The notes beneath the pieces were generated by a model. It had not been told where the DNA came from, searched no databases, and was given only the letters and a program-made list of their open reading frames with translations. The position numbers were made by a program, and so were the translations under genes. This document shows positions 5,172 through 60,958 of a DNA stretch of 64,000 nt, in pieces. The number at the start of each line of letters is the position of its first letter. Within the stretch, counting starts at the first letter, position 1. This DNA comes from Verrucomicrobiota bacterium (lineage in GTDB: Bacteria > Verrucomicrobiota > Verrucomicrobiia > Opitutales > UBA953), in the NCBI GenBank assembly GCA_015061905.1, contig SUVQ01000001.1, positions 1 to 64,000 of the forward strand. The letters are read 5' to 3'.

Positions 5172-5194
5172 AAATCCTCTTTCGCACGGGAGCA

Positions 5195-5392
5195 GAATCT
5201 CGCGCAAAGACGCAAAATCGCAAAGTTTTTTGCGGTTTATTTTTCCCACGGATAAAACAGATTTTCGCAGATGTCCTGATTCTTCTTCGCGGTTGAATCA
5301 TTCGTGGAAATTCGTGTTTATTCGCGGTTCCTAAAAACATTGCGGCTTAGCGCGTAAAAAAAACGTTCCCGCAACCGAAGCCGCGGGAACGC
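5195..5392. repeat. Intergenic repeat family C, copy 1, with terminator
   Basis: The block begins GAATCTCGCGCAAAGACGC, passes through TTTATTTTTCCCACGGATAAAACAG and ATTCGTGGAAATTCGTG, and ends in the CGTTCCCGC/GCGGGAACG hairpin. It is nearly identical to 6272-6480, closely related to 59620-59839, and present inverted at 60771-60958. The sequence fills the gap between sdaAA and the PEP-CTERM gene and contains no credible ORF. Confidence 0.8.
5356..5392 (-). terminator. Terminator of PEP-CTERM gene 1, built from the dispersed word
   Basis: On the minus strand AGCGTTCCCGC pairs with GCGGGAACG across a GGCTTCGGTT loop and is followed by eight T residues. It lies about 35 bp past the stop of the PEP-CTERM gene. 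Confidence 0.85.
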
Positions 5393-5426
5393 TAACCATA
5401 ATCTATGAATTAATATATTACAGAAA

Positions 5427-6101
5427 TTATTTGCGGCGGCGACGCGATGCCACCAACGCAAGCGCGCCAAGCCCAGCAAGCATTCCGAACGCCGACGGCT
5501 CGGGGATCGTCGTGAAAGAACCGCCCGTGATGCCGGAATAAGTGTTGTAACTCTTCGCGCCCCCCATCGTAAGCGCAAATTCCACAGAACCTCCTGCAGA
5601 CACTTCTAAACCGCCCTCACCGAAAGAAATCGTTCCGGCACTCGTCTGACCTCCATAGCCAAGGTTAAACTCAGAGGACGAGACTGATTCTCCGTTGTAT
5701 CCGAGCGTCAGCGTTACAGGGATTGCCGCGTTCTTGTCCGAGCCTCCTCCGTTGATGCCATAGCAATCAAATGCAAACTGAGTCAATACGACATCCTCCG
5801 TTCCGTTGTTGGTAAAAGTGAACTTCATCGTCCAGGAGTCAGTAGTCCCGCTACGAAGTTGCGCATCCGGAGAAAATGTATTCTGGTAAGCGGCATTCGT
5901 GGGAGTCTGCCACGCCCCATCATTGTAATTTCCGCTTCCGTTGTATGCCCAATTTGTATAAGCCAGTTCGAAGCTTGTGGCGTCTAATTCGGAGAACGTA
6001 ATAGTATCGCCAGATCGCTCGATACCAAACTCGATTGTTTCCGCGTTAGCGAATGTTGTTCCGGCGGCGAGGAGCGCCGCGAGTGTTATGTATTTTTTCA
6101 T
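5427..6101 (-). CDS. PEP-CTERM surface protein 1
   Basis: This is a predicted exported protein of 224 residues. It has a classic signal peptide (MKKYITLAALLAAGTTFANA, cleavage near residue 20), a low-complexity Gly/Ser/Asn/Thr-rich extracellular region and a C-terminal sorting signal: IPEPSAFGMLAGLGALALV, a membrane segment, then ASRRRRK. In the PEP-CTERM/exosortase system the tail is cut and the protein is delivered to the surface or matrix. No exosortase gene is in the window. The 5' flank, signal peptide, sorting tail and 3' flank are nearly identical to those of the gene at 59873-60592, while the core is unrelated. The function of the core is not recognisable. Confidence 0.9.
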   Translation of the reverse strand: MKKYITLAALLAAGTTFANAETIEFGIERSGDTITFSELDATSFELAYTNWAYNGSGNYNDGAWQTPTNAAYQNTFSPDAQLRSGTTDSWTMKFTFTNNGTEDVVLTQFAFDCYGINGGGSDKNAAIPVTLTLGYNGESVSSSEFNLGYGGQTSAGTISFGEGGLEVSAGGSVEFALTMGGAKSYNTYSGITGGSFTTIPEPSAFGMLAGLGALALVASRRRRK

Positions 6102-6271
6102 AATGATTAAGTTTGATTGTGAGTGTTAAAAGTATTTGTGGATAAAAACCGAGACAAACGCGGCGTTACCGCCGATTTGTCCCAATTCTTAGCAGCGATT
6201 GTCGCAAAAAAAAACGTGCCCGTCAAGCACGTTTTGAAAAAAAATCCGTAAATTTCATCAATTACACAAAA
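6102..6271 (-). promoter_or_regulatory. Conserved leader of PEP-CTERM module 1
   Basis: The 170 bp upstream of the PEP-CTERM start are shared almost base for base with the second module (60593-60770). They include two inverted repeats: GACAAACGCGGCG/CGCCGATTTGTC about 45-75 bp upstream of the start, and AACGTGC/GCACGTT at about 6213-6236. On the minus strand the latter is followed by a long T run, so it can terminate incoming transcription. The conservation suggests a shared promoter or 5'-UTR control. Confidence 0.6.
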
Positions 6272-6480
6272 GAATCTCGCGCAAAGACGCAAAATCGCAA
6301 AGTTTTTTGCGGTTTATTTTTCCCACAGATAAAACAGATTTTCTCAGATGTCCTGATTTCTTCTTCGCGGTTGAATCATTCGTGGAAATTCGTGTTGATT
6401 CGCGGTTCCTAAAAACTTCGCGGCTTGGCGGCTTCGCGCGAAAAAAAAAAACGTTCCCGCGACTGAAGCCGCGGGAACGC
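6272..6480. repeat. Intergenic repeat family C, copy 2
   Basis: Near-identical copy of 5195-5392, again starting GAATCTCGCGCAAAGACGC and ending in a CGTTCCCGC/GCGGGAACG hairpin. The two copies bracket the first PEP-CTERM gene as direct repeats. Confidence 0.8.
6441..6480 (-). terminator. Terminator of the kinase/receiver operon
   Basis: On the minus strand GCGTTCCCGC pairs with GCGGGAACG and is followed by ten T residues. It is placed just past the stop of the response regulator. Confidence 0.8.
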
Positions 6481-6511
6481 AAAGTTTTTATAATTTCGAG
6501 CAAAGACGTTT

Positions 6512-8440: not shown

Positions 8441-9994
8441 TTACTTTTGAACGGGAGTCGCAACCGTAGCGACGGGAACGGCGACGGCAGTTTCCTGCGC
8501 GGGAACGCTCGCTGTTTCTTCCGAAGTCGGAAGCGGCTTAAAAACGCCGAGCGAAGCAAGCAGAATCATCATCGCGTAGGTCAAAACCATTCCCAAAACG
8601 CCGATAATTACGCCGGTTCTTGCCATTCCCTTCGTGTCGACCAAGCCGGTCGCGTGCGCGAGCGCATTCGGCGGGGTGGAAATCGGGAGCGACATTCCGA
8701 GCGAGGACGCAAATGCCACGGAAACGAGAAGCGCAATCACGCCGCCGAGAACGTCCAACGAGGCGCCGACGTTCACGCCGACAACCGCGATAATCGGAAC
8801 CAAAAGCGAAGCCGTCGCCGTGTGCGACATAAAGTTCGCCATGAAAAGGCAAATCACGCCGGCGCCGACCATCAGCCCGAAAGCCGGCCAGGACGCGAAC
8901 GGAATCGCGCCGATGAGGTGTTCCGCCAAGCCGGTTTTCTGCAAGCCCACGCCGAGTGCAAAGCCGCCGGCAACAAGCCAAAGCACGTCCCAACTCATTC
9001 CGTTCAGGTCTTTTTTGGTGATAACCTGCGAAAGCGCAAAAACCGCCATCGGAACCATCGCAACGATATTCGAATCAATCCCGACGATGTCTTTTCCGAG
9101 CACCCAGAGCAAAACGGTAATCGCGAACGTAATGTAAACGATGATTGCCTTCGGCGTTTTCAAAAATTCGCCGCCGACATTCAATTCCATCGTTTTCTTG
9201 GAAATCGGGAACATCCAAAGCAAAAGTGCCCAAGAAAGCAAAATCAGGATAATGACATACGGAACACCAAACGCCATCCAGGTGCCGAACGAAACCGTTG
9301 CATCCATATCGGCAAGCGCCTTGAGCGCAATCGCGTTCGGCGGCGTCCCGATCGGCGTGCCCATTCCGCCGACGTTTGCGGCAATCGGAATCGCAAGCGC
9401 AAATGCCGCTCGACCTTTGTCGTTTTCGTCAAAAAGCGAAAGCACGGGAGCGAGAATCGCAAGCATCATCGCCGCCGTTGCAGTGTTGGACATAAACATC
9501 GAGAAAAGCGCCGTAATCGCCATCAATCCGAGCAAAACGAATTTCGGATTTTTCCCGAAGGGCTTCAGAAGGAAGCGCGCCAAATTCATGTCCAATTTAT
9601 ACTTCGTTGCCGCCGCCGCGAGGAAGAAGCCTCCGAGGAAGAGCATGATAATCGGATCGGCAAAAGTCGCCATCAACCCTTTAGAGCTCACCAGATTCGC
9701 GTATTTTTCACCGGAAGCCGGATCCGCCTGGAAGGAGAAAAATGTTTCTCCGCCCCACGAGAGCATCAAACCTTTATCAGACACCGTGAGCAACATCAGC
9801 ACGATGACGAACATCGAAGTCGTCCAGATCGGGAACGGTTCGAGAATCCAGAACAGCGCGGCGAGCACGAAAATCGCAATCACGCGGATCTCGACGGCGT
9901 TCAGTGCCAAGCCGAGAGATTCATACGGCAAGAAAAGGCACCCGGCAGCAAGTGCGAGGGCAATCAGGGCCTTTAGAGCTTTTACTTTTGTCAT
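8441..9994 (-). CDS. SLC13/DASS-family sodium:dicarboxylate symporter
   Basis: This 517-residue membrane protein has about twelve hydrophobic segments. It carries the two family substrate-binding motifs in inverted-repeat halves: FMSNTATAAMM with GTPIGTPPNAIALK, and FMSHTATASLL with SLPISTPPNALAH. Members import di- or tricarboxylates such as succinate, malate or citrate with sodium, but the substrate cannot be told from sequence alone. The last 30 residues are a Val/Ala/Pro/Thr-rich tail encoded partly by copies of the dispersed word. It is the only gene of its transcription unit here. The interior from about 8520 to 9830 lacks the word. Confidence 0.9.
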   Translation of the reverse strand: MTKVKALKALIALALAAGCLFLPYESLGLALNAVEIRVIAIFVLAALFWILEPFPIWTTSMFVIVLMLLTVSDKGLMLSWGGETFFSFQADPASGEKYANLVSSKGLMATFADPIIMLFLGGFFLAAAATKYKLDMNLARFLLKPFGKNPKFVLLGLMAITALFSMFMSNTATAAMMLAILAPVLSLFDENDKGRAAFALAIPIAANVGGMGTPIGTPPNAIALKALADMDATVSFGTWMAFGVPYVIILILLSWALLLWMFPISKKTMELNVGGEFLKTPKAIIVYITFAITVLLWVLGKDIVGIDSNIVAMVPMAVFALSQVITKKDLNGMSWDVLWLVAGGFALGVGLQKTGLAEHLIGAIPFASWPAFGLMVGAGVICLFMANFMSHTATASLLVPIIAVVGVNVGASLDVLGGVIALLVSVAFASSLGMSLPISTPPNALAHATGLVDTKGMARTGVIIGVLGMVLTYAMMILLASLGVFKPLPTSEETASVPAQETAVAVPVATVATPVQK

Positions 9995-17602: not shown

Positions 17603-17661
17603 AACGTCTTCCCTCGAACCCGGTCAAAAACTTCCCCGCGTTCCCGCGCAGAAACGCCGGC

Positions 17662-17943
17662 TCACGAAATCCGCTTTTTCTTTCCGGCGCGAGCCCGTTC
17701 GGCTTGCCGTCGCAGTTCGGGCAACTTTTTCCGTTTCGCCTGCGGATTCATCAAGTCCGTGCGTTGTGCTCGGCGAAACGTTCCTAATTTTTCGTCCAAG
17801 TCAAAACCGAACTCTTCATTTAATCGCCGAATGGTCGCCTCTCTCACAAACGAGGTAAAATTCTTCATGCTTTGACACGATTCATAAGCCGCAAGAATTT
17901 CCTTCGGGAACGCAATGAAAAACTGCTTGGAGCTTTTAGACAT
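17662..17943 (-). CDS. Small ribbon-helix-helix-like protein
   Basis: This 93-residue basic protein starts MSKSSKQFFIAFPKEILAAYESCQSMKNFTSFVREATIRRLNEEFG. That is one predicted beta strand and two helices, the pattern of CopG/Arc-type DNA-binding domains, with a Lys/Arg-rich tail. Its start codon lies inside the 8-bp inverted repeat TTAGACAT-N6-ATGTCTAA, which is typical of an autoregulated operator. It is transcribed divergently from the gene at 18036 and may control it. The family assignment is tentative. Confidence 0.6.
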   Translation of the reverse strand: MSKSSKQFFIAFPKEILAAYESCQSMKNFTSFVREATIRRLNEEFGFDLDEKLGTFRRAQRTDLMNPQAKRKKLPELRRQAERARAGKKKRIS

Positions 17944-18042
17944 CCCAATATGTCTAACACAATCTCAACCCGATGCGGAAAACTCGCCATTTGACATAAT
18001 ATTATGTTAAATACATAGTCTGTAGACTAAATATTATGTCAA
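17936..18042. promoter_or_regulatory. Divergent operator region with inverted repeats over both start codons
   Basis: TTAGACAT/ATGTCTAA (17936-17957) covers the start of the minus-strand gene. The 13-base arms TTGACATAATATT (17991-18003) and AATATTATGTCAA (18030-18042) are exact complements, and the right arm contains the ATG at 18036. Between them are ACATAATATTATGT (17994-18007, a perfect palindrome) and AGTCT-GT-AGACT (18017-18028). All except the last share the core GACAT. Confidence 0.65.
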
Positions 18043-19424
18043 ACAAATCGCATTCAGTATCCGAATTTGATTTACGGGATCCGGCATTTTTTACGCAGGA
18101 AGACCCGCTTTTCCCGATTTCCGAAAATCAGCGCGCGGCGGAGAAGCAGGCACTTGCAGAGCTCGCGACTCCGTTTTTCGAAGATTTTTTCTGTGACCGG
18201 CAAAACACAGATACGCCCGTGCGCACGATTACAATCCGCCGCCCCCGCGTGGAAAATCGGCACGGAAGAGCACGACTTTCGGCTCAAATCGACGTCGACG
18301 GAGAATGCAGAGAAGTTTGGTTTGAGGTCGAAGAAAAATACGGGAAATATCTTTGTTATGAACGCTCCGACGCATTTTTAATCGGATTGCTGAACTGGGC
18401 GATGCGGGAACGTTGCGACTTCATTTGCGAAGCACCCGTGGGAGAAGAGCTCATTTACCAAATTCGCACTTACCTGATTCCGGCAGTTGTCAAGGCAAGT
18501 AAAACACTTTATGCGCCGAGAATCACGGCTGACATTGACACGGGAACGCTTCCTTGCGCGGGAGCGGTGGGCACGGGAATTTCCTGCGGCGTGGATTCCC
18601 TCCACGTTGTTGCCAACCAAGCGAGAAGCGCGTTCCCGCATCTTCGACTCACGCATTTAATTTTAAACAATGTCGGAGCGTTTTCCAAAGAGGAAGGGAA
18701 GAATCAGTTTTCCTGGCAAACGGAGCACGCCAAGCAATTCGCCGAAGAATACGGGTTTGAATTTATCCAAACGAATTCCAATTTTTCGGAGGCGTTCCCG
18801 CAAAACCATTTGCTGACGCATACCTACTCAAGCTGTTTCGGAATTTACGTTTTGCAAAAACTTTGGCGCGTATATTTTTATGCATCAAGCGGATACGATT
18901 TCACGGAATTTCGCTTGGAGAAAAACGAAGATTTCTCTTCGGATCATTATGAACTTTTATCCCTGAATGTTTTTTCGCATAGAAATTTAAAAATTTATTC
19001 GGAGGGAGGCGCCAAAACGAGATTTGAAAAAACACGTGCTCTCGTCAATTTCGTTCCCGCGCAAAAATACTTGCACGTTTGCACGAGCGACCTCGGCGAA
19101 AACTGTAATATCTGCGGAAAATGCAAGCGAACGCTTGTTACACTGGACGCGCTGGGCGCACTTGAAAAATTTCGCGCCGTCTTCGATATTGATTACTACA
19201 AAAAACATCGGCGAAGCTATCTGCGCTGGCTCGTTGCCCAACAAATTTTACCGCACGGCGATTTAATGCTGAAAGAGCCGTTCCAAATCCTTCGAAAGGA
19301 TATTTCGTTGCTTATCCGGCTCGAAGCGTTCCCGTATGCGGCAATCGGCTTTGCACGCTCCCACCTTGCCAAAATCCCTTTTCTGAAAGCGATTTACCGA
19401 AAATATTTCAAGCGAAAGAAATAG
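18036..19424 (+). CDS. ATP-pyrophosphatase-like protein with Cys cluster
   Basis: The 462-residue protein has an adenine-nucleotide PP-loop-type motif, GISCGVDSLH, near residue 185, and a Cys-rich segment, CTSDLGENCNICGKCKRTLV, near 355-375. This combination is seen in QueC/ThiI-like and sugar-amidotransferase-like enzymes that adenylate a substrate. The N-terminal third is unrecognised. The gene is directly followed by a polysaccharide flippase, so a role in modifying a surface sugar or lipid-linked precursor is inferred. It is controlled from the palindrome-rich divergent promoter. Confidence 0.55.
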   Translation: MSNKSHSVSEFDLRDPAFFTQEDPLFPISENQRAAEKQALAELATPFFEDFFCDRQNTDTPVRTITIRRPRVENRHGRARLSAQIDVDGECREVWFEVEEKYGKYLCYERSDAFLIGLLNWAMRERCDFICEAPVGEELIYQIRTYLIPAVVKASKTLYAPRITADIDTGTLPCAGAVGTGISCGVDSLHVVANQARSAFPHLRLTHLILNNVGAFSKEEGKNQFSWQTEHAKQFAEEYGFEFIQTNSNFSEAFPQNHLLTHTYSSCFGIYVLQKLWRVYFYASSGYDFTEFRLEKNEDFSSDHYELLSLNVFSHRNLKIYSEGGAKTRFEKTRALVNFVPAQKYLHVCTSDLGENCNICGKCKRTLVTLDALGALEKFRAVFDIDYYKKHRRSYLRWLVAQQILPHGDLMLKEPFQILRKDISLLIRLEAFPYAAIGFARSHLAKIPFLKAIYRKYFKRKK

Positions 19425-19463
19425 TTTCGCTTCCGTTTGTAATCCGTATTCGAGATTCCGAAT

Positions 19464-20999
19464 ATGTCCGAGCACGCCGACACAAAACGCCTGATGCGAA
19501 ATACGCTGATGCTGTATTTCCGGATGCTTCTCTCCACGTGTATCGGGCTTTATACATCGCGTATCGTTTTAGAGGCGTTAGGGATTGATGATTTCGGTAT
19601 TTACAACGTTGTCGGCGGCATCGTTACCCTGCTCGCGTTTTTGAATACGTCGATGTCACGCGGCACGGAGCGTTTTCTGCTCGTCGAACTCGGAAAAAAA
19701 GATTTCGAAGAATTAAAAAAGACCTTTGCGCTAACCGTAACCATTCACTGCGGCTTGGCTCTTGTCATTTTAATTTTCGCGGAAACGCTCGGGCTCTGGT
19801 TCATAAACGCGCACTTGAACGTTCCCGCAGAGCGTATATGCGCCGTCAATTGGGTTTACCAATGTTCTGTGTTTTCGTTTATTGTCGGGGTTTTGCAAGT
19901 TCCGTATATGGCAAGTATTGTCGCCCGCGAACGCATGAGCATATACGCCTATGTAAGCCTCGGCGAAGCCGCGCTGAAACTTCTTCTTGTTTTTTTGCTA
20001 ACGCATCTCGGCGGAGACAAACTCATTATTTACGCCCTGCTCTGCGCGGGAACGTCTTTCTCCGTCGCAATGACTTATCGGTTTTTTTGCCGGATTCTTT
20101 TTGAGGAATGCCGCTTTCGGTTTTATTTCGATGCAAAAAAAGCTCGCGAAATTGTTTCCTTTACGGGCTGGAGTCTCGTTTCTCATTTTACGGGCGCGCT
20201 TTCCGGACAGGGAACGAACATTTTGTTGAATCAATTCTTCGGACCTGCAGTCAACGCCGCACGCGGGATCGCATTTCAGGTTTCCGGAACAATTCAAAAT
20301 TTTGTTTCGAATTTTCAAACCGCCGCCGGTCCGCAAATCGTGAAAACACACGTCGCCGGAGAAATCGCGCAGGAACGGGCCCTGATTTTAAAAACCTGCC
20401 GATTATCGTTTTTCCTGCTGATGATTTTTGCTATTCCGGTGATTTTGGAATGCGGATTCATTTTGAAAATTTGGTTAGTCAGCGTTCCCGCGCAGACGGA
20501 AATATTTTTGCAAATCATCATCATCCAGGGGCTTGTAACCACGTCCGCCCTGCCGATGTTTCAAGCTCTGATGGCGACAGGAAATATTCGCGCGCACCAA
20601 ATCGGGTTTGCCGCTCTTCACGCACTTTATTTTGCAGGAAGCTACGCCGCGCTTTGTTTCGGCGCAACCGCGACAAGTGTTTTCCTCCTTGGCGTTATCA
20701 TGGAAGCTCTCATGATGTGCTGGAGAGTTCTGCTTTTGAAAAAACAAATTCAATTCTCCGTGCGGATTTATTTTCGGCAAGTCGTCGTTCCCGCCGGGGT
20801 TGTTTTCATATTGGCGGGAACGCTTCCGCTTTTTATTCATCTTTCTCTCGGAGAAGGTTGGCTTCGCCTGCTTGCGGTTGGAATCTCCTCGCTTGTTTGT
20901 TGCGCCATCTCCATTTTTTTCTTCGGAGTAACACTGTCCGAGCGCAAATTTCTGCTCGAAAAAAGCGTTTTAAAATTTCGCAACCTTTGGCGGGCTTAG
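19464..20999 (+). CDS. Wzx-like polysaccharide flippase (MOP superfamily)
   Basis: The 511-residue integral membrane protein has about twelve to fourteen hydrophobic segments. Its N-terminus RMLLSTCIGLYTSRIVLEALGIDDFGIYNVVGGIV is characteristic of oligosaccharide flippases of the MviN/MATE/Wzx superfamily. These move undecaprenyl-linked oligosaccharides across the inner membrane. It is 39 bp downstream of the ATP-pyrophosphatase-like gene and probably in its operon. No glycosyltransferases are adjacent, so the substrate cannot be stated. Confidence 0.85.
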   Translation: MSEHADTKRLMRNTLMLYFRMLLSTCIGLYTSRIVLEALGIDDFGIYNVVGGIVTLLAFLNTSMSRGTERFLLVELGKKDFEELKKTFALTVTIHCGLALVILIFAETLGLWFINAHLNVPAERICAVNWVYQCSVFSFIVGVLQVPYMASIVARERMSIYAYVSLGEAALKLLLVFLLTHLGGDKLIIYALLCAGTSFSVAMTYRFFCRILFEECRFRFYFDAKKAREIVSFTGWSLVSHFTGALSGQGTNILLNQFFGPAVNAARGIAFQVSGTIQNFVSNFQTAAGPQIVKTHVAGEIAQERALILKTCRLSFFLLMIFAIPVILECGFILKIWLVSVPAQTEIFLQIIIIQGLVTTSALPMFQALMATGNIRAHQIGFAALHALYFAGSYAALCFGATATSVFLLGVIMEALMMCWRVLLLKKQIQFSVRIYFRQVVVPAGVVFILAGTLPLFIHLSLGEGWLRLLAVGISSLVCCAISIFFFGVTLSERKFLLEKSVLKFRNLWRA

Positions 21000-21241
21000 C
21001 GCGAGGAATCCGTCAAAACAAATCGCGCTCGTCCTCAACAGCCAGAATGCCTATTCCGGATTTCCGGGAAACAGCAGGCGCGAACGACGAGGTCATAAAC
21101 GTCTTCGCGCCCGAAAAGCCCTATCCATACAAATCGTTCGTAAAATAAAAAAAAACGGCATCGGCAGGGGAAAATCCCCTTGCGGGAACGGGCGGACGGA
21201 AACAGAATCTGAGGCATTCGTTCCCGTTTCCTTTTCTTCTT

Positions 21242-24013: not shown

Positions 24014-24045
24014 GGAGAACGAGATTAAAGAAACTCGAGCTCAGT

Positions 24046-24901
24046 CAGACATAGGTAACACTTTAGAGTCAGAGATAGGTTACACTTCTAAGGTTACAGA
24101 GAGACTACAAGGTTGGGGATTGGAAGCAAGACTTTGAGTTGTCGAAGAAGAATCCTCCCCTATGACGCCCCCTAGGGGGGGGGGGCGCCGGCCTCGGGAT
24201 GAAGCGCCAGCTCTTCGTCCGAGATAAACTTGGCAATGTCCGAGTGATACTCTCCGAGGAAGACCTCGTAGAGATAAACACTGAAAGCGTCTCCGCTGTC
24301 CCGAGGTAACAATCCGACTGTGTGCTCCCGCAAGGAAGTGCTCAGGAAGACCTGGCGCTTTTGGTCGAGGCAAACACTTCCCACCTTTGTGACTTTACGC
24401 TCCAACATCCCGCGATACTTAAAACGAAGGTTGCAGGAATATTTACGTTCGCTTTTTCTGTAAACATCTGCGGGGACGGCATTGGCTAAAGCCGCATGCG
24501 GACGTTCGCAGTTAAAGCTCTCACGCCACGCGTCCGGCTCTGCTTGGGACGAACAACGATTCGCCTCAAGCAGAAGCATGTCGCGGTGCATGCGTTCGTG
24601 AGTGCTAAGCGTAACTTGATGAGCCGGCTTGCTACCTCTTCGTTCCAGAGAAGATCTGTCTTATCCGGACGCCGAGACCGTTCGTGCAACCCCGGGTCGC
24701 CTTCTTGCTCGTAACGACGCTTCCACTTATAGAGCGTTTTTCGTGATATTGAATAGCGTAAGGCAATCGAACTGACGCTCTCTTGCCCCTGCGCTAATGC
24801 AGCCATTATTTCTTTTTTCATATCGATAACACTTTTGTTTTCCCACGGCATCGCACCGTAGCTTTTAACACAAACCCCCAAAAAGTGTTACCTATCTGTG
24901 A
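24046..24901 (-). mobile_element. IS481-type insertion sequence, internally deleted
   Basis: The element has inverted ends CAGACATAGGTAACACTTT (24046-24064) and, at the other side, AAAGTGTTACCTATCTGTG (24882-24900). These match the TGTTACC...ATCTG ends of many IS481 members. A second left-end-like block, CAGAGATAGGTTACACTT, follows at 24070-24087. It contains a broken transposase lacking its central catalytic region and has no copies of the dispersed word. It sits between the MFS gene and a probable former terminator of that transcript at 25341. Confidence 0.8.
24172..24851 (-). pseudogene. IS481-family transposase with central deletion and frameshift
   Basis: The N-terminal part starts at ATG 24851 (MPWENKSVIDMKKEIMAAL) and carries the helix-turn-helix ISRKTLYKWKRRYEQEGDPGLHERSRRP. 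After VASRLIKLR the sequence jumps near 24605 to the C-terminal part in another frame: STHERMHRDMLLLEAN, FNCERPHAALANAVPADVYRKSERKY. About 150 residues holding the first two catalytic Asp residues are missing, so it cannot be active. Normal family length is about 300-400 residues. The two listed ORFs (24172-24591 and 24486-24881) are these two pieces. Confidence 0.85.
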
Positions 24902-25340
24902 ATTTCCGCCCAAAAAGGGATAACGGATAGGGTTCTTTATGAAAAAGATTAAAGATGCCGCAGGCACTTTCGGCATCCGCGTTCCACTGCGCCGCAAAAA
25001 CGGCAGGGGCGCAGACACGCCTCCGAGCGGCGCATGACGGTAGAGCCGCTTGCCTGCGGGTTTCGGCTGCGCCACACCCGCGGTTATCCTATGTCGTGCA
25101 CCTCCGGAGCACAGCCTCGAAGAGGCAATTACAAATAGCAAATCCTAAATGCTTATCGCGAAAGTGATAACTGATAGTTGATAACGGATAAGTGAAGACG
25201 CCTGCGGCGAGAGATAAAGCACTAAGCATTGAGTATCAAGGTTACCGATCTCTGGCTTCTTAAGCTTTAAGCTCTTTCTTTAATCTTTGACCTCTCTTAT
25301 CGGACGAATCAAGCAACACACTCCTCCACCGCACGCGGTC
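24902..25340. other. Non-coding spacer after IS element
   Basis: No credible gene is seen. The stretch holds a GC-rich piece (about 24955-25085) with small inverted repeats and then AT-rich runs such as GTGATAACTGATAGTTGATAACGGATAAGTG. A similar GATAACTGATAAG run occurs near 45415. It also has an AGCTTTAAGCTC repeat. None of it contains the dispersed word. Confidence 0.6.
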
Positions 25341-25373
25341 CACCTCCCCTAACTTAGGGGAGGTGCTTTTTTT
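25341..25373 (+). terminator. Strong plus-strand terminator
   Basis: CACCTCCCCTA pairs perfectly with TAGGGGAGGTG across a three-base loop and is followed by CTTTTTTT. No plus-strand gene ends nearby, so it may be the original terminator of the NanM-like/MFS transcript, separated from it by the IS insertion. Confidence 0.8.
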
Positions 25374-25433
25374 ATTTCCCGATTCGATGCGCCCAAGAGT
25401 TTCCGCGGGACGCGTGCGCTCCCGCGGGTGTCT

Positions 25434-26699
25434 TTACGCGAGGCGGACTTGACCGGAGCCTTCGATCAGATATTTGTAAGTCGTTAAGGCGTCCAAGCCC
25501 ATCGGTCCTCGGGCGTGGAGTTTTTGCGTAGAGATGCCGATTTCGGCACCGAAGCCGAATTGCCCGCCGTCGGTAAAGGCTGTGGACGCATTCGCATAAA
25601 CGCAGGCGGCATCAACGCGTTTCAGAAATTCGGAAACGGCAGCTTCGTTTTCGGCGACAATGGCTTCGCTGTGGTGCGAGCCGTGGCGTGCAATGTGTGC
25701 CAGTGCGTCTTCCAGAGCGGGGACGCAACGGACGCTCATTTTATAATCCAAAAATTCCGTCCCGAAGCTTTCCGGTTTCGCGCGGTGCAACAGTCTTTCG
25801 GGGTAATTTCCCGACAAGGCGTCAAAAGCGCAGTCGTCGGCAAAGATTTCGACATCTTTTTCGGCGAGTTTTCCGCAAATTTCGGGTAAGTCGGCGAGAC
25901 GGGCGGCATGAACGAGCAGACAATCCAACGCGTTACAAACGCTGACCCGGCGTGTCTTGGCGTTGAAAACGATTTCCCGGGCTTTTCCGATATCGGCGGA
26001 AGCATCCGCGTAAACGTGGCAAATGCCGGCTCCGGTTTCGATGACGGGAATACGCGCATTATCACGGACAAAATCAATCAGTGCACGCGAACCGCGCGGG
26101 ATGGCGAGATCGACTTCGCCGACGGCATTCAGAAGCGCCGTTGTTGCTTCGCGCGGCGACGGCAGGAGCGAGCAAACGGCGGGAGGCAATTCTCGGGCGG
26201 CAAGCGCTTTTCTGACGTTTCGGACAAGTGCGTCGTTGGAGGCTTCCGCGTCATGCGATCCTTTCAGGATGCAGGCGTTTCCGCTTTTCAGGCAAAGAGA
26301 AAAAACATCGAGTGTCACGTTGGGGCGTGCTTCGTAAATCACGCCGACAACTCCGATCGGGACGGAAACTTTGCAAATGCGCAAGCCGTTCGGACGGATG
26401 TTTTCCGCAATAATTTTTCCGAGCGGCGACGGCAATTCCGCGACGCTGCGCATGTCCGCCGTGATTGCGGCGAGGCGTTCGCGTGTGATCAGAAGACGAT
26501 CGTATTTCGGATTATCTTTCGCCATACGCGAGCAGTCTTCGCGGTTGGCGGCAAGGATCGCTTCCGCTTCGCGGTCCACGGCATCGGCAACGGCGCAAAG
26601 CGTTTGCGCAATGGCGGAGTCGCTCAGATTGGCGGTTACGAGAGCGGCTTCGCGCGCTTCGGCAAAAATTCGTTTACACGTTTCGGGTACGGATTCCAT
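25434..26699 (-). CDS. proA: Gamma-glutamyl phosphate reductase
   Basis: This enzyme makes glutamate 5-semialdehyde from gamma-glutamyl phosphate with NADPH in proline synthesis. The start ATG 26699 ([20 protein letters not shown]) is chosen because the upstream part of the ORF overlaps proB and is not family-like. The 421-residue length is normal. Visible blocks are [34 protein letters not shown], the catalytic Cys region [16 protein letters not shown] and [22 protein letters not shown]. It is the last gene of a proC-proB-proA operon and has no copy of the dispersed word. Confidence 0.95.
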
Positions 26700-26781
26700 G
26701 AAACTACTTCGATTGATTCGGGATTGAGAGAAAAGCAGTCGGCAGAAACCGGTTCTGAATTCCGGTCTCGTCGAAAAAAAA

Positions 26782-27843
26782 TTAATCCAGGAAAAGATAA
26801 TCGTAATGAACGACCGGATGCATTTCCTCCGGAGCATTTTCGAGCCAGGAGCTTAATTCCGCCGCCGAGCAAAGGATTTTCCCGCAGCCGATATTTTCGC
26901 CCTGCCCGTTGACGATTCGGACGAGTTCGTCCCGGAAAAATTCGCCGGAGCAACGCAAAACGTCGGCAGCATTCAAACTGCGCGGATGTCCGGAGCGGAG
27001 TTCGTTTTCCGCCGATTCCGTAATTACAATTTCCCGCCGCGCAAAAACACGTTTCCCGGAATCCGGTTTTTCCTCCGGAATAAAACGCGTGCAGAGCGTT
27101 TCCGCCGGATTATCGATTAAATGAAGCAAGATATCTTCCCGCTTTCCGTTGGCAATAACCACGGGAATTCCGCCGGATGCGATGCGCCGCGCAATATTGC
27201 ATTTTGTAATCATGCCGCCGCGTCCGAATTGCGATTTCCCGCGCGTCACGCACATCGAAAAATCATTGTCTTCGGGTTTAATTTCGCGAATGACCCGTGC
27301 GCCGGGCTTGGCGGGATCGCCGTCAAAAATGCCGTCCACATTCGAAAGAATAATCAGCATGTCCGCGTCCATCATTTCGGCGACGAGACCGGAAAGCTCG
27401 TCGTTGTCCGTAAACATCAATTCGGTAATCGAAATGGTGTCGTTTTCGTTGACGATCGGCACGACTCCGTTGGCGAGCATAACGTCCATGCAACGTTTCT
27501 GATTGCGGTAATGCGAGCGTGTCGTAAAAAACTCTTTCGTCGTCAACACTTGTCCGCAAGCGCTTCCGTTGCTCCGGAAAAAATCGAAGTAGCGATTCAT
27601 CAGTTTGGCCTGTCCGACGGCAGAAAAGAGTTGGCGGGCGGAGACGGAATCGAGTCGGTCGGCGGGAATGCGCAACTCACTGCGTCCGGAGGCAACGGCA
27701 CCGGACGAAACCAGCACGACTTCGATGCCGCGTCGGTTAAGTGCGACGACCTGATCGACGATTGCCGACATGCGCGTGACATCGAGTGTACCGTCTTCCC
27801 GTGCCAGGACGTTGGAACCGACTTTTACAGTAATGCGTTTCAT
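26782..27843 (-). CDS. proB: Glutamate 5-kinase with PUA domain
   Basis: This 353-residue enzyme phosphorylates glutamate in the first step of proline synthesis. The amino-acid kinase domain covers about residues 1-250 ([27 protein letters not shown] and [14 protein letters not shown]). The C-terminal PUA domain includes [32 protein letters not shown]. It lies between proC (20 bp upstream) and proA (82 bp downstream) on the same strand. It lacks the dispersed word throughout. Confidence 0.95.
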
Positions 27844-27863
27844 GGGTTTCCGAAGGTAGAAAA

Positions 27864-28649
27864 TTAAAGAGCGGAAGCTTTGAGTCCCGCGATGACGGCG
27901 GGCGTGAATCCGGCGGCTTCCATAGCGTTGAGACCGCGGATCGTTATGCCGCCCGGCGTGGTCACGCGGTCAATCGCCGCTTCGGGATGTTCGCCGCTTT
28001 CTTCGAGCAATTCGACGGCGCCGCGCAAGGTTTGCAAAACAAATTCCCGGGATGCTTCGGGATAGAAGCCGAGTTCAACGCCGCCTTCGCATGCCGCACG
28101 GATGTAGCGCATGGCGAAAGCGATTCCGCAGGAAGCGAGTGCCGTCGCGGCAGCCATTTGTTTTTCTTCGATAAATGCCGTTTTCCCGAGAGCGTTTAAA
28201 ATCGTCTGCACGTATTCGATTTGGGGCTCGGAAGCATTTTTTGCGGCAAAGAACGTCATGCTTTCCCCGCAAGCGGCGGCGGTGTTCGGCATAACGCGGA
28301 AAAGCGTACGCGTTCCCGAATTGCCGAAAAAGGTCTCCAGTTGTTCGAGCGAAATTCCGGCGGCGACGCTTGCGACAATTGTGTTTCCGGAAACGTGTCC
28401 TCGAATTTCTTCGATGATTTTTTCAAGCAGCCACGGTTTGACGCAAAGCAGGATCAAATCCGCGCCTTCTGCGGCGGCTGCGTTGTCGCACGAAACACCA
28501 AGTCCGGGAAAATTCACCGCCAACGCGCTCAGGGTTTCGACGGATTTTGCGGTGCAAACGATTTCTCCGGCGAAGCAAACCCGTTTTGCCAACAATCCGC
28601 GCACGATTGCGCCGCCCATATTTCCGCTTCCGAGTACAGCAATTTTCAT
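27864..28649 (-). CDS. proC: Pyrroline-5-carboxylate reductase
   Basis: This enzyme catalyses the last proline step. The start ATG 28649 (MKIAVLGSGNMGGAIVRGLL) places the Rossmann motif GSGNMG at the N-terminus. The 261-residue protein shows LLCVKPWLLEKIIEEI, the VMPNTAAACGESMT segment, and the C-terminal signature VTTPGGITIRGLNAMEAAGFTPAV. It is the first gene of the pro operon. The single dispersed-word copy at about 28307 inside it marks the edge of a 4.6-kb word-free stretch. Confidence 0.95.
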   Translation of the reverse strand: MKIAVLGSGNMGGAIVRGLLAKRVCFAGEIVCTAKSVETLSALAVNFPGLGVSCDNAAAAEGADLILLCVKPWLLEKIIEEIRGHVSGNTIVASVAAGISLEQLETFFGNSGTRTLFRVMPNTAAACGESMTFFAAKNASEPQIEYVQTILNALGKTAFIEEKQMAAATALASCGIAFAMRYIRAACEGGVELGFYPEASREFVLQTLRGAVELLEESGEHPEAAIDRVTTPGGITIRGLNAMEAAGFTPAVIAGLKASAL

Positions 28650-28747
28650 ACGCGTGTTTTTTATCACTTTGCAAAGCTTCCCGCAAGCGGGCGATAGAGG
28701 GGAAAGATCTTAAAGATTAGAGTTTAAAGATTAAAGAAACTCAGAAG

Positions 28748-28785
28748 AAGCGTTCCCGTGGTGCATTTCGCGGGAACGCTTTTTT
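28748..28785 (+). terminator. Word-pair hairpin with T run, left flank of metallopeptidase gene
   Basis: AAGCGTTCCCG-TGGTGCATTTCG-CGGGAACGCTTTTTT forms a perfect stem and T run reading on the plus strand, although no plus-strand gene precedes it. The same 36 bases recur at 30182-30218 after the next gene. Confidence 0.8.
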
Positions 28786-28929
28786 GTGCGAGAAGGAATC
28801 ACTTTATAAAAGTTTGTTCCTGACCACTCCACGCAGGATAAAACCTGCGTTCCTGTGCGACGAGTTGCAATATTCTTGATTCTCCGTGTCGGCTTTGTTC
28901 TTCTTTCGTTACCTCCCCTTATTTACCCT

Positions 28930-30159
28930 ATGTCTTATTTCAAAAAAAAATTGTCGTTAGGCGTATTGTCTGCAATTTGCGTTGTTGCTTCCCCAATTGC
29001 ACATGCGGTTGAAATTGATACGAGTTCCAATGCCGTGTTTGACCTTTATTTTTTCGGCAACGGAGAAGTCGCTCAACTCGGCGAAAATCTTTCCGGATTT
29101 AAGGATTACAACACCGGATTGGATTCCCAACAGATTACCGGATGGACGGATTGGACGGGAACGCCTTCAGTCGCCAACGAAAATTCTTGGACACAGGCGC
29201 AGAAACAGGCGATGACGGAAGCCGTTGCAGCATGGACTGACGCAATCCGAAACGTCTACGATACTCAAGGCGGGACACGTCGGAAAATGCGTATCGGCTT
29301 TTTTCTTGATGACGCGACGCGAAGCGAGTCGCTTATGGAAACATCAATGACCGGCTACGCTTCTTACGCAACGACGACTTCTGACTTTGCAAACGGAAGT
29401 CCCGTAAATCTGTATTCGGTTCCGGAATGGCTGTGGCGAGACGGGAAGTCAGCGACAGTCTCTCCGCCGAGCTCTTCAACATCGGGCTCGTTTTGGAATT
29501 ACAATTTGCTCCCTAATGCGGAAAATTGCATTGAAGTCGCGATTGTCATTAATCCGGAACAGCTTGTTTATTCGAATGGTCTGGCAACGCGAGTGGAGCG
29601 GTCTGCGGAAGACCTCAAAAAAGTCGCAATGCACGAACTCGGACATGCCATGGGAATGGACAGCAAAATGTATACCGCAAGCGAAGCGTATCCGAAATCT
29701 AATTTGGTAACCACGTGGGACTCGCTGATGATGATTGGAGAAAACCAACGTGTTATTACGCTCGGTCCAGACGGAAAATTAGATTATGCCTATGAAAATT
29801 TTCGCCTGCTTTGCGCTGAAGGCTGGTCGCTTTACGAGGCTTGGTTTAATTCAGGCGAAGGCGAAGAAAAATTAATCCGCCTACAAAATGCCGACGGCGA
29901 AGTTGTGAATCTTTTGGTTACGGCGGGAACGAACGTGGAAGGAAATTCGCTGGTTCACCTTTTAGGTGAACTCGGAAAGCAAAACGATGTTCTCGGTCCC
30001 GGCGGACTACAAGGCGCAGAATTTACGGAGCTTGATTTAACTGCGTTGCGTATGCTCGGTTGGCAGGTTGCCATTCCCGAGCCGTCCGTTTTCGGATTGC
30101 TTGCGAGTCTGGGCGCATTCGTGCTCGTCGGTGTCCGCCGCAGGAAAAGGAACATTTAA
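28930..30159 (+). CDS. PEP-CTERM zinc metallopeptidase
   Basis: The start ATG 28930 (MSYFKKKLSLGVLSAICVVASPIAHA) gives a good signal peptide; the ORF upstream of it is spacer. The 409-residue protein carries the metzincin-like zinc site MHELGHAMGMDS at about residue 240. It ends with a PEP-CTERM sorting tail (AIPEPSVFGLLASLGAFVLVGVRRRKRNI). It is therefore a surface-delivered protease-like protein. A Trp/Asn-rich insert precedes the active site, and a Met-turn candidate (DSLMMIGE) follows it. It is a single-gene unit bracketed by identical terminator hairpins. Confidence 0.85.
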   Translation: MSYFKKKLSLGVLSAICVVASPIAHAVEIDTSSNAVFDLYFFGNGEVAQLGENLSGFKDYNTGLDSQQITGWTDWTGTPSVANENSWTQAQKQAMTEAVAAWTDAIRNVYDTQGGTRRKMRIGFFLDDATRSESLMETSMTGYASYATTTSDFANGSPVNLYSVPEWLWRDGKSATVSPPSSSTSGSFWNYNLLPNAENCIEVAIVINPEQLVYSNGLATRVERSAEDLKKVAMHELGHAMGMDSKMYTASEAYPKSNLVTTWDSLMMIGENQRVITLGPDGKLDYAYENFRLLCAEGWSLYEAWFNSGEGEEKLIRLQNADGEVVNLLVTAGTNVEGNSLVHLLGELGKQNDVLGPGGLQGAEFTELDLTALRMLGWQVAIPEPSVFGLLASLGAFVLVGVRRRKRNI

Positions 30160-30181
30160 AGATTAAAAGAGCTCGAAAGAA

Positions 30182-33237: not shown

Positions 33238-33431
33238 CTTCCGCTTTGCGGGCGTTCCCGCGCGAAGCAAAATCGCCCGTCGCCAAAAGCATAAAAATTT
33301 TTCCGAGGAACAAGGCGTTCCCGCGCGCCAAAGCTTCGGCGAAAGCGACTGATGGCGCATTCCGGCACGCCGTTTTTCTTGTTTTTTGCCGCGAGTCGCG
33401 TATCATCTCGAATTTTCCTTAACACAAAAAA

Positions 33432-47884: not shown

Positions 47885-47941
47885 ACGCGAAAAGAAAAAA
47901 AGTGTGCGGCATAGATACGGGTGTTTTATGGGCGGGAAAAG

Positions 47942-48934
47942 CTACGCCTTAAACAACACTTTGCCGTTACGCCCGCCTTCGAGCGCGCGCGCGATCGCGG
48001 ATTTGTATTCATCGAGTGAATACACGGCATCGACGGCCATGTTGAGCTTTCCGTCACGCATCATGGCGAAAATTTTGTCCGCCATTTCCGCTTTCGCTTC
48101 GGCGGAAGCCGCGCGATTCCAGCGGTCCATCCAAAATCCGCGCAGGCGCAAATCGTTGAAAATAAATTCGCGCGTGGGGAAGCGAATCAAATCGCCGGTC
48201 ATTCCGCCAAACGTAACTATCGTTCCCGCAAAGCCGACCATGCGCGTGAGGCGCGCCGCGCTTTCGCCGCCGATGGAATTGAGCGCGAGCTTCGGCAAAT
48301 TCGCCTTCCCGCCGACGATTTCCGCGATTTTTTTAATCGAATCTTTTTCTTCCGGCAAAACGGCATCGGCGCCGAGATTTTTCAAAACCGGTTCCCATTT
48401 TTCAACATTGCGCACCATCGAAACGGTTTTCAAACCGAGCGCGTGCGCCATTTGCACAAGGCATTGCCCGAGCGCGGAACTTCCCGCGTTCTGCAACACC
48501 CAATCGCCGGGCTTGAGTTCGACAAAATCGTGAAGAATGCGCCAAACCGTCATCGGGTTGATAAACGCCATCGACGCGAGTTCGGCGGGAACGTCCGCCG
48601 GCACTTTTTCGACTTCGTCGGCGGGAACGGTAATCGCTTCGCGCCAAACGCCGGCGTCCTCCGGCATGCGCACGCGGTCGCCCACGGCGAGATTTTTAAC
48701 ATTTTCGCCGACGGCGGAAATGCGCCCTACGCCCTCGCGCCCGGCGACGGCGGGAAGTTCGCGCAAGCGACCGTAAGTTCCGCCGATCATTCCCATGTCG
48801 GACGGATGAACGACTGCCATTTCGAGCGCGATTGTAACTTCGTCGGCGCGCGGCGCGGGAACGTCGATTTCCTGCAGAGTTAAAACTTCGAGCGGTTTTC
48901 CGGTTTCGTTATAAACAAGGGCTTTTGCTTTCAT
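47942..48934 (-). CDS. Medium-chain dehydrogenase/reductase, 2-enoyl thioester reductase-like
   Basis: The 330-residue zinc-independent MDR protein has VVHPSDMGMIGGTYGRLRELPAVAGREGVGRI, then FINPMTVWRILHDFVELKPGDWVLQNAGSSALGQ and a Rossmann core. The segment order matches MECR/ETR enzymes that reduce trans-2-enoyl-CoA or -ACP with NADPH. It could equally be a quinone-oxidoreductase-like enzyme. It is a single-gene unit. Confidence 0.8.
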   Translation of the reverse strand: MKAKALVYNETGKPLEVLTLQEIDVPAPRADEVTIALEMAVVHPSDMGMIGGTYGRLRELPAVAGREGVGRISAVGENVKNLAVGDRVRMPEDAGVWREAITVPADEVEKVPADVPAELASMAFINPMTVWRILHDFVELKPGDWVLQNAGSSALGQCLVQMAHALGLKTVSMVRNVEKWEPVLKNLGADAVLPEEKDSIKKIAEIVGGKANLPKLALNSIGGESAARLTRMVGFAGTIVTFGGMTGDLIRFPTREFIFNDLRLRGFWMDRWNRAASAEAKAEMADKIFAMMRDGKLNMAVDAVYSLDEYKSAIARALEGGRNGKVLFKA

Positions 48935-48970
48935 ACGATTTTATATGAAACAGCGTTCCCGCGCGTCCCG

Positions 48971-49174
48971 CAAATTGAAATTTGTTGCTCGTTTCGAGCA
49001 ACAAATGCTGAAAAGCTTAAGAGCTTAGAAGTTTAGTTGTTTCGCAAGCAAAACAAAGAAAAGAATCCTTTTTATTTTATAAAAGTAAAACTCTCGGCGA
49101 AGCCGATTAAACTTTTCAGCTTCTCTGCTTTTAAACATTTAGCGACCGCGTCGCGTTCGCTAAATTTCTATTTG
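48971..49174. repeat. Structured intergenic repeat, copy 2
   Basis: This block matches 3313-3519. It has the outer inverted ends CAAATTGAAATTTG/TAAATTTCTATTTG, the AAGCTTAAGAGCTTAGAAGTTTAGTTGTTTC arm, AAAGAAAAGAATCCTTTTTATTTTATAAAAGTAAA, and the complementary AAACTTTTCAGCTTCTCTGCTTTTAAAC arm. The left hairpin here is TTTGTTGCTCG/CGAGCAACAAA, different in sequence from copy 1 but equally well paired. It again fills the spacer between divergently transcribed genes. Confidence 0.8.
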
Positions 49175-51192: not shown

Positions 51193-52008
51193 ATGAGTTT
51201 CCCGGGAAAAATCGACGCGGGAACGCTCGCCGATTTCCAGAAAAAAATCGGCTCAAAGCTCCGCATTTTCTGCATCGAAGAAACGCAAAGCACGAACGCG
51301 GATGCCGCGAAAATGCTCGCTTCGGGAACGCCGCCGCACGACTTTGCAATTTGCGCCAACTCGCAAACCGCCGGGCGCGGACGCCTTCCCGGACGCCGCT
51401 GGGAAAGCCGCCCCGGAAACATTTTGCTCTCGCTCGCCTTTCGCCCGGAAAAACTTTCGCCGGAAAAACTCACGAATTTCACGCTTTGGCTCGGCGTCGC
51501 CGTCGCCCGAATGCTACGAAAAAACTTCGACGTTCCCGCACTGGTAAAATGGCCCAACGACATTTTTTGCCGAGGAAAAAAAATGGCGGGAATGCTCACC
51601 GAAGCGCATATAACGACCGCGCACGTGCACGGCATCATTTTCGGAATCGGGCTCAATGTAAACCTCCGCGAAAGCGAACTTCCGCACGAACTGAAAAACA
51701 GCACGACCTCGCTTTCCCGGGAACTCGGCGGGAACGCGCTCGACGTAAACGCCGTTTGCGCAGCTCTTTTACTCACACTCGAAACCGCTTACACGGAATT
51801 TCTCTCGGGAACGCACCAAAAAATTCTCGCCGAAGCTTGGAAAGAATACGACTGCCTCTTCGGGCAACGCGTCGTCGCAACTTTCGCCGATGAAGAAATC
51901 TGCGGCATCGCCGACGGAATCGACGAGCAAGGCAGAATCAAAATTCTGGGCGACGACGGCACGACACACGCATTTTCCGCCGGAGATGTCGTCATGAAAA
52001 AAAATTAG
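51193..52008 (+). CDS. birA: Biotin-[acetyl-CoA-carboxylase] ligase
   Basis: The start ATG 51193 (MSFPGKIDAG) is preferred over the TTG two codons upstream. The 271-residue protein attaches biotin to carrier proteins through biotinyl-AMP. It has ETQSTNADAA, the adenylate loop TAGRGRLPGRRW, VKWPNDIF and KKMAGMLTE, plus a C-terminal SH3-like domain ending HAFSAGDVV. There is no N-terminal DNA-binding domain, so it is a monofunctional ligase and not a repressor. Confidence 0.93.
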   Translation: MSFPGKIDAGTLADFQKKIGSKLRIFCIEETQSTNADAAKMLASGTPPHDFAICANSQTAGRGRLPGRRWESRPGNILLSLAFRPEKLSPEKLTNFTLWLGVAVARMLRKNFDVPALVKWPNDIFCRGKKMAGMLTEAHITTAHVHGIIFGIGLNVNLRESELPHELKNSTTSLSRELGGNALDVNAVCAALLLTLETAYTEFLSGTHQKILAEAWKEYDCLFGQRVVATFADEEICGIADGIDEQGRIKILGDDGTTHAFSAGDVVMKKN

Positions 52009-52163
52009 AAATCAAAAAGCGCAAACAACGCTCACGGGAACGCAAAAACAGTAGCCCACTTCCGCACTCTTTTTCAAATACCTTGAGACATTTCCTTTTC
52101 TTGAAAAAAAACAAAGCCCGGACACCAAGCAGAAACGCCGCGAGCGGGAACGTTTTTTGGGTA

Positions 52164-59537: not shown

Positions 59538-59839
59538 AAAACCACGAATAGACGCGAATTTTCACGAAGTATTTTCGTGTAAAGCCATCGCCTTCCGTGG
59601 CTCTTTATTTTCTTATTTCGCGCAAAGACGCTGAGACGCGAAGTTTTTTTTGCGGTTTATTTTTCCCACGGATGAAACAGATACTCACAGATGTCCTGAT
59701 TTCATCTTCGCGTTAAAAAGCATTCGTGAAAATTCGTGGTTATTCGCGGTTTCTTTTTTTTCCTATTTTTTAAAAACTTCGCGGCTTTGCGGCTTAGCGC
59801 GAAAAAAAACGTTCCCGCGACCGAAGCCGCGGGAACGCT
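59538..59839. repeat. Intergenic repeat family C, copy 3, with terminator
   Basis: The stretch from about 59620 carries CGCGCAAAGACGCTGAGACGCGAAG, TTTATTTTTCCCACGGATGAAACAGA, ATTCGTGAAAATTCGTGGTTATTCGCGG and ends in the word-pair hairpin. It aligns with 5195-5392 and 6272-6480. A preceding piece has CACGAATAGACGCGAATTTTCACGAA. No gene is seen. Confidence 0.78.
59802..59839 (-). terminator. Terminator of PEP-CTERM gene 2
   Basis: On the minus strand AGCGTTCCCGCGG pairs with TCGCGGGAACG and is followed by T8, about 35 bp past the stop, as in module 1. Confidence 0.85.
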
Positions 59840-59872
59840 AACCATAATCTATGAATTAATATATTACAGAAA

Positions 59873-60592: not shown

Positions 60593-60770
60593 AATGATTA
60601 AGTTTGATTGTGAGTGTTAAAAGTATTTTGTGGGTAAAAACCGAGACAAACGCGGCGTTCCCGCCGATTTGTCTCAATTCTTAGTGCGGATTGTCGCAAA
60701 AAAAAAAACGTGCCCGTCAAGCACGTTTTGAAAAAAAAAATCCGCAAATTTCACCAGTTACACAAAAGAA
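60593..60770 (-). promoter_or_regulatory. Conserved leader of PEP-CTERM module 2
   Basis: Nearly identical to 6102-6271. It contains the GACAAACGCGGCG/CGCCGATTTGTC hairpin and the AACGTGC/GCACGTT hairpin with a T run on the minus strand. One base change here turns GCGTTACCGCC into GCGTTCCCGCC, creating a dispersed-word copy absent from module 1. Confidence 0.6.
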
Positions 60771-60958
60771 TCTCGCGCAAAGCCGCGAAGACGCGAAGTT
60801 TTAAAAGAGGTAAGAAACCACGAATAACCACGAATTTTCACGAATGCTTTTTAACGCAAAGAAGAAATCAGGACATCTGTGAGTATCTGTTTCATCCGTG
60901 GGAAAAATAAACCGCAAAAAAACTTTGCGGCTTTGCGCGAAAAAAAACGTTCCCGCGA
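60771..60958. repeat. Intergenic repeat family C, copy 4, partly inverted
   Basis: GAATCTCGCGCAAAGCCGCGAAG begins as in the other copies. The next section (ACCACGAATTTTCACGAATGC, ATCAGGACATCTGTGAGTATCTGTTTCATCCGTGGGAAAAATAAACCGC) is the reverse complement of the family. The module is thus bounded by inverted copies here and direct copies at module 1. Confidence 0.75.

Follow-up and report, generated by a model that had tools for sequence, protein, structure and literature searches.

Likely exchange of variable cores between constant gene ends in a class of predicted PEP-CTERM surface proteins of ruminant-gut Opitutales

Many environmental and gut bacteria carry dozens of PEP-CTERM/exosortase proteins, whose extreme diversity and scarcity of recognisable domains have been on record since 2006. 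In the sections of Haft et al. (2006; PMC1569441) drawn on here, the sorting tail spreads as a module by paralogous expansion, and many of the proteins are unique to one of two close species. The genes described below resemble that system in having the tail, a putative signal peptide, an accompanying exosortase, tens of copies in a genome and diverse mature parts, and the same sections likewise report tails that are more alike within than between species, as well as upstream DNA conserved in some lineages. On the other hand, the site reported there is of a sigma-54 type found in Proteobacteria, and those sections describe no fixed-slot core replacement, core/tail mosaics or T-tract promoter. 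PEP-CTERM genes of gut Verrucomicrobiota are also targets of genetic variation in the Akkermansia invertons (PMC11892184), which differ from the present case in that promoters are inverted at inverted repeats near PEP-CTERM genes. Our search of the open-access literature found no paper on core exchange in PEP-CTERM proteins.

The window, that is the whole 64-kb stretch analysed here, is the beginning of a 359-kb contig in a 2.08-Mb genome of 17 contigs, from a group of uncultured ruminant-gut bacteria within the Opitutales. Two Opitutales MAGs served as main references: G007, a sister species from sheep rectum (corresponding to RGIG6493; 1.53 Mb fetched), and G004, from goat rectum (corresponding to RGIG2967). 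All named relatives are MAGs, and the comparison uses one genome per species. Regions of our own genome were fetched piecewise and its PEP-CTERM genes were placed in G007 by their flanks, which are short for genes outside the class studied, making the mapping of those genes less reliable. Our genome and G007 are about 91–95% alike, and 38 window ORFs have a G007 counterpart at 79–100% amino acid identity over the full or nearly full length, a few ORFs being overlapping and spurious. The two modules treated here, m1 and m2, had no G007 counterpart in this comparison, nor did seven other window ORFs.

Architecture and membership of the class

The ORFs of m1 (5427–6101, 224 aa) and m2 (59873–60592, 239 aa) both lie on the minus strand, and each module runs from a repeat through a leader (promoter-like site and 5'UTR), signal peptide, core, PEP-CTERM tail, 32-bp spacer and hairpin to a further repeat. 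The initial annotation had proposed, from the letters of the window, that the two share leader, signal-peptide and sorting-tail codons, 3' spacer and flanking repeats but not their cores, and BLASTN confirmed a common leader and signal peptide (92.4% over 275 bp, E 1e-112), a common tail, terminator and 3' repeat (83.7% over 338 bp) and an identical spacer, CTAACCATAATCTATGAATTAATATATTACAG. The parts are as follows.

6271–6483, minus strand: m1 5'-side dispersed repeat, a direct repeat of 5194–5395 (90.1% over 213 bp), with about 80 related places in the genome
6198–6226, minus strand: m1 promoter-like TTGACG-GGCACG-T9-GC-GACAAT, 17-bp spacer, an element present at 25 of our genome's PEP-CTERM genes (reversed control, 0)
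6102–6197, minus strand: m1 constant 5' untranslated leader, within the 92% block common to m2, at 17 genome places
6042–6101, minus strand: m1 constant signal-peptide codons 1–20 (MKKYITLAALLAAGTTFANA), from the m1/m2 alignment and synonymous identity
5505–6041, minus strand: m1 variable core, codons 21–199, matched in G004 at dS 0.02 and by none in G007
5427–5504, minus strand: m1 constant PEP-CTERM tail codons and stop, dS 0.72 to G004 against 0.02 for the core
5392–5423, minus strand: m1 constant 32-bp 3' spacer, identical in m2
5364–5391, minus strand: m1 terminator-like hairpin with paired CGTTCCCGC / GCGGGAACG motifs and then a T run, from sequence and motif counts
5194–5395, minus strand: m1 3'-side dispersed repeat, overlapping the terminator, from alignment and repeat search
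60690–60720, minus strand: m2 promoter-like TTGACG-GGCACG-T11-GC-GACAAT, 19-bp spacer, from the promoter scan
60593–60689, minus strand: m2 constant 5' untranslated leader (m1/m2 BLASTN)
60533–60592, minus strand: m2 constant signal-peptide codons 1–20 (m1/m2 BLASTN)
59951–60532, minus strand: m2 variable core, codons 21–214, a predicted beta-sandwich, with the G007 counterpart absent
59873–59950, minus strand: m2 constant PEP-CTERM tail codons and stop (tail model)
59838–59869, minus strand: m2 constant 32-bp 3' spacer, identical in m1
59810–59837, minus strand: m2 terminator-like hairpin with paired CGTTCCCGC / GCGGGAACG motifs, from sequence and motif counts
59615–59841, minus strand: m2 3'-side dispersed repeat, from alignment and repeat search
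60767–60945, no strand assigned: m2 5'-side repeat copies, mostly inverted relative to 59634–59802 (BLASTN)

The repeats flanking m1 are thus direct and those of m2 mostly inverted. They are built of the short phrases CACGAATTTTCACGAATG, AATCTGTTTTATCCGTGGG and CGCGAAGACGCAAAG, as at 5194–5395, 6271–6483 and 60773–60945, and copies in either orientation stand around modules and at their empty sites. An Rfam search of seven class or related loci returned tRNAs only, and RNAalifold found no consensus structure in 35 aligned 5'UTRs.

The mature cores of m1 and m2 gave no significant DNA alignment in BLASTN. The earlier statement that they do not align therefore stands at the DNA level, with the correction that they are 'not detectably related' as opposed to proven unrelated. 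One 47-residue patch (FSPD..W..F) common to the two gave a weak profile match (42% probability) and, with single sequences, did not exceed the best of the other cores; we rejected core homology, this single patch being no better than controls.

Both modules score above the curated cut-offs for TIGR02595 / PF07589 (C-terminal PEP motif, hydrophobic helix, basic cluster), their constant first codons have the form of a signal peptide as judged by eye, and an exosortase (EpsH family, PF09721) is present in eight of eight genus genomes. We place m1 and m2 in a genus-specific class of surface proteins that exosortase is predicted to sort and cleave. The possibility that only these two copies exist did not survive a search of the genome, in which the leader matches 17 places (m1, m2 and 15 more), tail DNA matches 37, and the tail model gives 65 matches above cut-off. 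We studied as the class the 17 catalogue genes starting MKKYIT or MKKYIM, among about 65 PEP-CTERM genes. All 17 are full ORFs with a putative signal peptide, and a strict scan placed the promoter at 16, the 17th (C6:38708) having a variant promoter. Promoterless or duplicated cores were not found among the 17, and antigenic variation from a silent archive of the pilE/pilS type was rejected for this reason. Two short tail remnants lie at C14:1133 and C14:115577.

The constant ends are conserved at sites where the protein is indifferent. At four-fold synonymous sites the 17 copies agree at 0.66 across the signal peptide and at 0.71 across the tail. Codon usage in the cores predicts 0.31, and the tails of other PEP-CTERM genes agree at 0.47. 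The ends lie far above expectation and so are either homogenised or of recent common DNA ancestry. The m1 tail with 60 bp beyond it is 98.6% identical to the copy at C10:65104 in the same genome, compared with 86.2% to its G007 slot partner. The cores are a different matter: aligning 36 class cores from three species (our genome, G007 and G004), as had been proposed at the outset, yielded 22 groups, of which 15 are singletons and seven hold more than one core. Some class cores are laminin-G/concanavalin-like, and the structure model of the m2 core is a beta-sandwich that weakly resembles CBM6 and other carbohydrate-binding modules. The structure model of m1 was too poor for use (pLDDT 56).

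Core replacement at slots and silent-site contrasts

When the 17 class genes were mapped to G007, two (C15:48579 and C6:38708) had both flanks and the same core there, and one (C8:19376) had both flanks with a different core. For five (C12:9657, C2:11579, C12:55807, C7:36410 and C15:32055) the G007 flanks are closely adjacent and the module is absent. The remaining nine, m1 and m2 among them, have flanks that map to separate places in G007. Viewed from G007, all eight of its MKKY-type genes sit on the 5'-flank slot of a class gene of our genome, three with the same core and five with another; one of these G007 genes joins the m2 3' flank to the m1 leader and 5' flank, and its core resembles that of neither module. 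Core swaps at orthologous positions, which the initial annotation had recommended seeking between strains, are thus found between species: one of the five different-core slots is a clean double-ended swap, and the other four keep the 5' flank and leader with a changed 3' flank, which implies that rearrangement or whole-segment replacement contributes.

Gene order in general is much rearranged between our genome and G007, with breakpoints at modules and elsewhere, and rearrangement is very frequent between species about 91% alike. Synteny breaks away from class modules lie at about 17656–21167, 24037–30160, 33244–33369, 47901–47943, 48934–49003 and 51986–52145. Because both genomes are rearranged throughout, module breakpoints are not special; we dropped them as a module-specific signal and do not use them as evidence.

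The clean swap is that between C8:19376 and G007 C11:367791. In 50-bp windows the 5' flank is mostly 90–100% identical. The leader shows a two-base difference at the T tract and a few point changes, and together with 16 codons is about 97% identical. Identity runs to about codon 16, stops, and resumes at the PEP codons, continuing through the tail (95%), spacer and hairpin and, past a short indel-rich stretch, through the 3' flank. Between these break points, one within the signal peptide and one at the PEP codons, the cores align at about 36%, which is the random level. The slot carries a third core in G004 (flank 88%) and a fourth, with another signal peptide, in G005 (flank 88%), so that four species hold four unrelated cores. 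The stretches retrieved for this slot from G002, G001 and G006 revealed no PEP-CTERM gene. In a search for its donor, the G007 core of this slot proved absent from our genome, and G001 has one relative at 48%. The case is strong that cores are replaced at fixed slots while ends and flanks are kept.

Mis-assembly could in principle mimic such swaps if repeats had joined the wrong flanks and cores in the MAGs, repeat copies being up to 99% alike and some contigs ending near PEP-CTERM genes (C7:242, C17:3876). We regard this as very improbable, since the C8 swap would need two mis-joins that left a core in frame between correct flanks on a 490-kb contig, the slot is variable in four species, and the silent-site contrasts given below fall within single continuous genes.

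Some sites have the whole module and others lack it. A more serious alternative is that complete genes with their repeats insert or delete at repeat-rich intergenic hot spots, and that different cores at one slot are independent insertions. The five class genes with an intact empty G007 site, some bounded by direct repeats or a common terminator motif, fit this, as do the four of five different-core slots in which the 3' flank differs too; moreover, the C8 leader is hardly closer to its slot partner (89.6%) than to its best paralogue (88.7%). Nonetheless, we consider whole-module gain and loss unlikely to explain the cores, because at C8 unbroken identity links the flank to codon 16 through the leader, and the PEP codons to the 3' flank, because the boundaries of the five empty sites show no consistent target-site duplication, and because the silent-site contrasts below put the joint inside the gene. 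The differing boundaries and lack of a common duplication at these sites, together with a module that encodes only the PEP-CTERM protein, also speak against a transposon or site-specific cassette (integron, MITE), as far as the module and its empty sites go.

Silent sites give the second line of evidence. The m1 core stands at dS 0.02 to G004, compared with 0.72 for its own tail and 0.79, 1.02 and 0.82 for its neighbours, and G007 has a different core at the m1 slot although it is closer than G004 to our genome at most genes tested there. Similar contrasts are seen in C15:48579 against G007 (core 0.05, tail 0.51) and in a core common to G007 and G004 in different surroundings (the L203/L211 pair; core 0.03, tail 0.74), and the shared cores other than m1 range over dS 0.03–0.08. 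Contrasts of this kind within one gene mean that core and tail differ in their history and meet near the PEP motif. Some cores are thus common to species at a silent divergence far below that of nearly all neighbours tested, beside a resident tail; in the case of m1, the dS values indicate a core passed between species next to a tail that stayed. Among other PEP-CTERM genes dS is mostly 0.3–1.2 with dN/dS near 0.1, and three outside the class also have low core dS. The gene at 8441–9994, with dS 0.22 to G004 where its neighbours have 0.8–1.0, may itself have been transferred between species.

The same data bear on the null of the initial annotation, namely an old paralogous family whose cores diverged vertically and very fast while selection held the ends. 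Raised dN/dS in several cores is in keeping with it, and so is the distant homology (30–38% identity) of some cores within our genome. It is nevertheless the least credible of the explanations weighed here, and we rejected it: replaced cores are at random identity beside ends that are 90–97% identical, shared cores are less diverged at silent sites than their neighbours and not more so, the m1 core has its match in G004, the more distant species, and none in G007, and silent sites in the ends are conserved beyond what protein selection would require.

Diversifying selection may act on the exposed core all the same. In four of five shared class cores dN/dS is 1.2–2.4, the fifth (C6:38708; 0.18) being conservative. 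When the four are pooled, dN exceeds dS, with differences at 6.5% of nonsynonymous sites compared with 3.7% of synonymous sites (Fisher p=0.012), a result that is suggestive only, as omission of the fifth core favours it.

Taken together, it is likely that these genes are exchange cassettes in which incoming DNA recombines in constant ends. Each has a constant 5' block (promoter, 5'UTR and signal peptide) and a constant 3' block (PEP-CTERM tail, spacer, terminator and repeats), and the variable core between them, where its type can be recognised, is a beta-sandwich or lectin-like. DNA from related species would enter, probably by natural transformation, and recombine homologously with the resident copy within its constant 5' and 3' blocks. 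New variants would be favoured by diversifying selection acting on the core, which is exposed, and the constant ends would keep each incoming core expressed, exported and sorted. The cassette-like exchange originally proposed is thus supported by the slot swaps, one of them double-ended. Transformation, selection and promoter switching merit less confidence than exchange; in favour of natural transformation as the route stand ComEC and the uptake-like motif described below.

Promoter element and uptake-like motif

The element TTGAC-N-T(9-12)-GCGANAAT lies about 110–130 bp before the start codon of the 25 PEP-CTERM genes noted above. In the fetched sequence of G007 all 11 sites precede PEP-CTERM genes, a reversed control pattern gave no matches, and outside the genus the T-tract promoter was found in none of 53 family genomes. 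The tracts, which lie between the -35-like and -10-like elements, run from T9 to T12 and spacers from 17 to 20 bp, with single-step differences between copies and between slot partners in G007. The modal spacer of 19 bp is unusually long for a sigma-70 promoter; most copies may therefore be weak, or the factor may differ. The tract-length steps would fit slippage and, possibly, phase variation, with the promoter poly-T of H. pylori sabA (PMC2715451) as a precedent for homopolymer-tract phase variation; the present tract differs in being a genus-specific spacer element on dozens of genes.

A further site with a similar 5'UTR lies at C1:8798-8828 (region C1:8000-14300), ahead of a gene whose product looks secreted and coiled-coil-like but lacks a PEP-CTERM tail; the regulon may therefore extend further. 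In 35 aligned class leaders, AATTGRG follows the -10-like element by about 8–10 bases and is kept even in the leaders that have diverged most; it could represent an operator or belong to the initially transcribed region.

The motif (G)CGGGAACG(C), with a flanking preference for G..C, is strand-neutral and abundant. CGGGAACG/CGTTCCCG occurs 210 times in the window (e.g. at 5364, 5383, 6452, 6471, 59810 and 59829), and G007 has 4,684 such 8-mers in 1.53 Mb (contigs L260-L338). In the same 1.53 Mb the 9-mer GCGGGAACG occurs 2,769 times compared with 14 expected (1326/1443 by strand), about 190 times expectation. Inverted CGTTCCCG..CGGGAACG pairs within 40 bp number 172 there. Such pairs often form part of terminator-like hairpins, among them those of m1 and m2. 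In these respects the motif resembles a DNA uptake sequence and is a candidate for one: those of Neisseriaceae and Pasteurellaceae are likewise short, non-palindromic, over-represented on both strands and present as inverted pairs in terminators, whereas the motif here is a different one in another phylum, with putative uptake specificity. The open-access literature yielded no paper on DNA uptake sequences in this phylum. ComEC is present in eight of eight genus genomes and also in 10 of 14 control genomes, and so is not specific. It is common in bacteria.

Two layers of surface diversity can tentatively be imagined in gut Verrucomicrobiota: exchange of cores among species by transformation into the constant ends, guided by uptake sequences and under diversifying selection, and a T-tract promoter switch on each cassette, such that cells might show shifting combinations from a genus-wide pool of cores. 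We consider this combined scheme possible but doubtful.

Comparison with known exchange systems

Fixed-slot core replacement, together with silent-site evidence for transfer, offers a concrete and testable mechanism for PEP-CTERM diversity. The PEP-CTERM proteins of ruminant-gut Opitutales are candidate targets of phage, immune or glycan-driven selection, and the uptake-like motif is an entry point to competence in this phylum.

The initial annotation had likened the logic to that of antigenic-variation cassettes. In outline this holds: pilE/pilS of Neisseria (PMC3848433) likewise combines constant ends, a variable interior and homologous recombination. In contrast to that system, however, there is here no single expression locus with silent promoterless copies; the genes are complete, mostly with their own promoters, no core is duplicated, and the exchanges seen are between species and chromosome slots, in place of a programmed switch fed by silent copies. 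The nearest described exchange logic is that of meningococcal tpsA/tpsC (PMC3848433), in which homologous recombination likewise replaces part of the gene for a surface or secreted protein; the DNA is acquired from outside, and uptake sequences lie close to the cassettes. There, truncated tpsC cassettes stand beside one tpsA and it is only the 3' end that changes, whereas in the present class complete genes occupy many scattered slots and it is the middle that changes.
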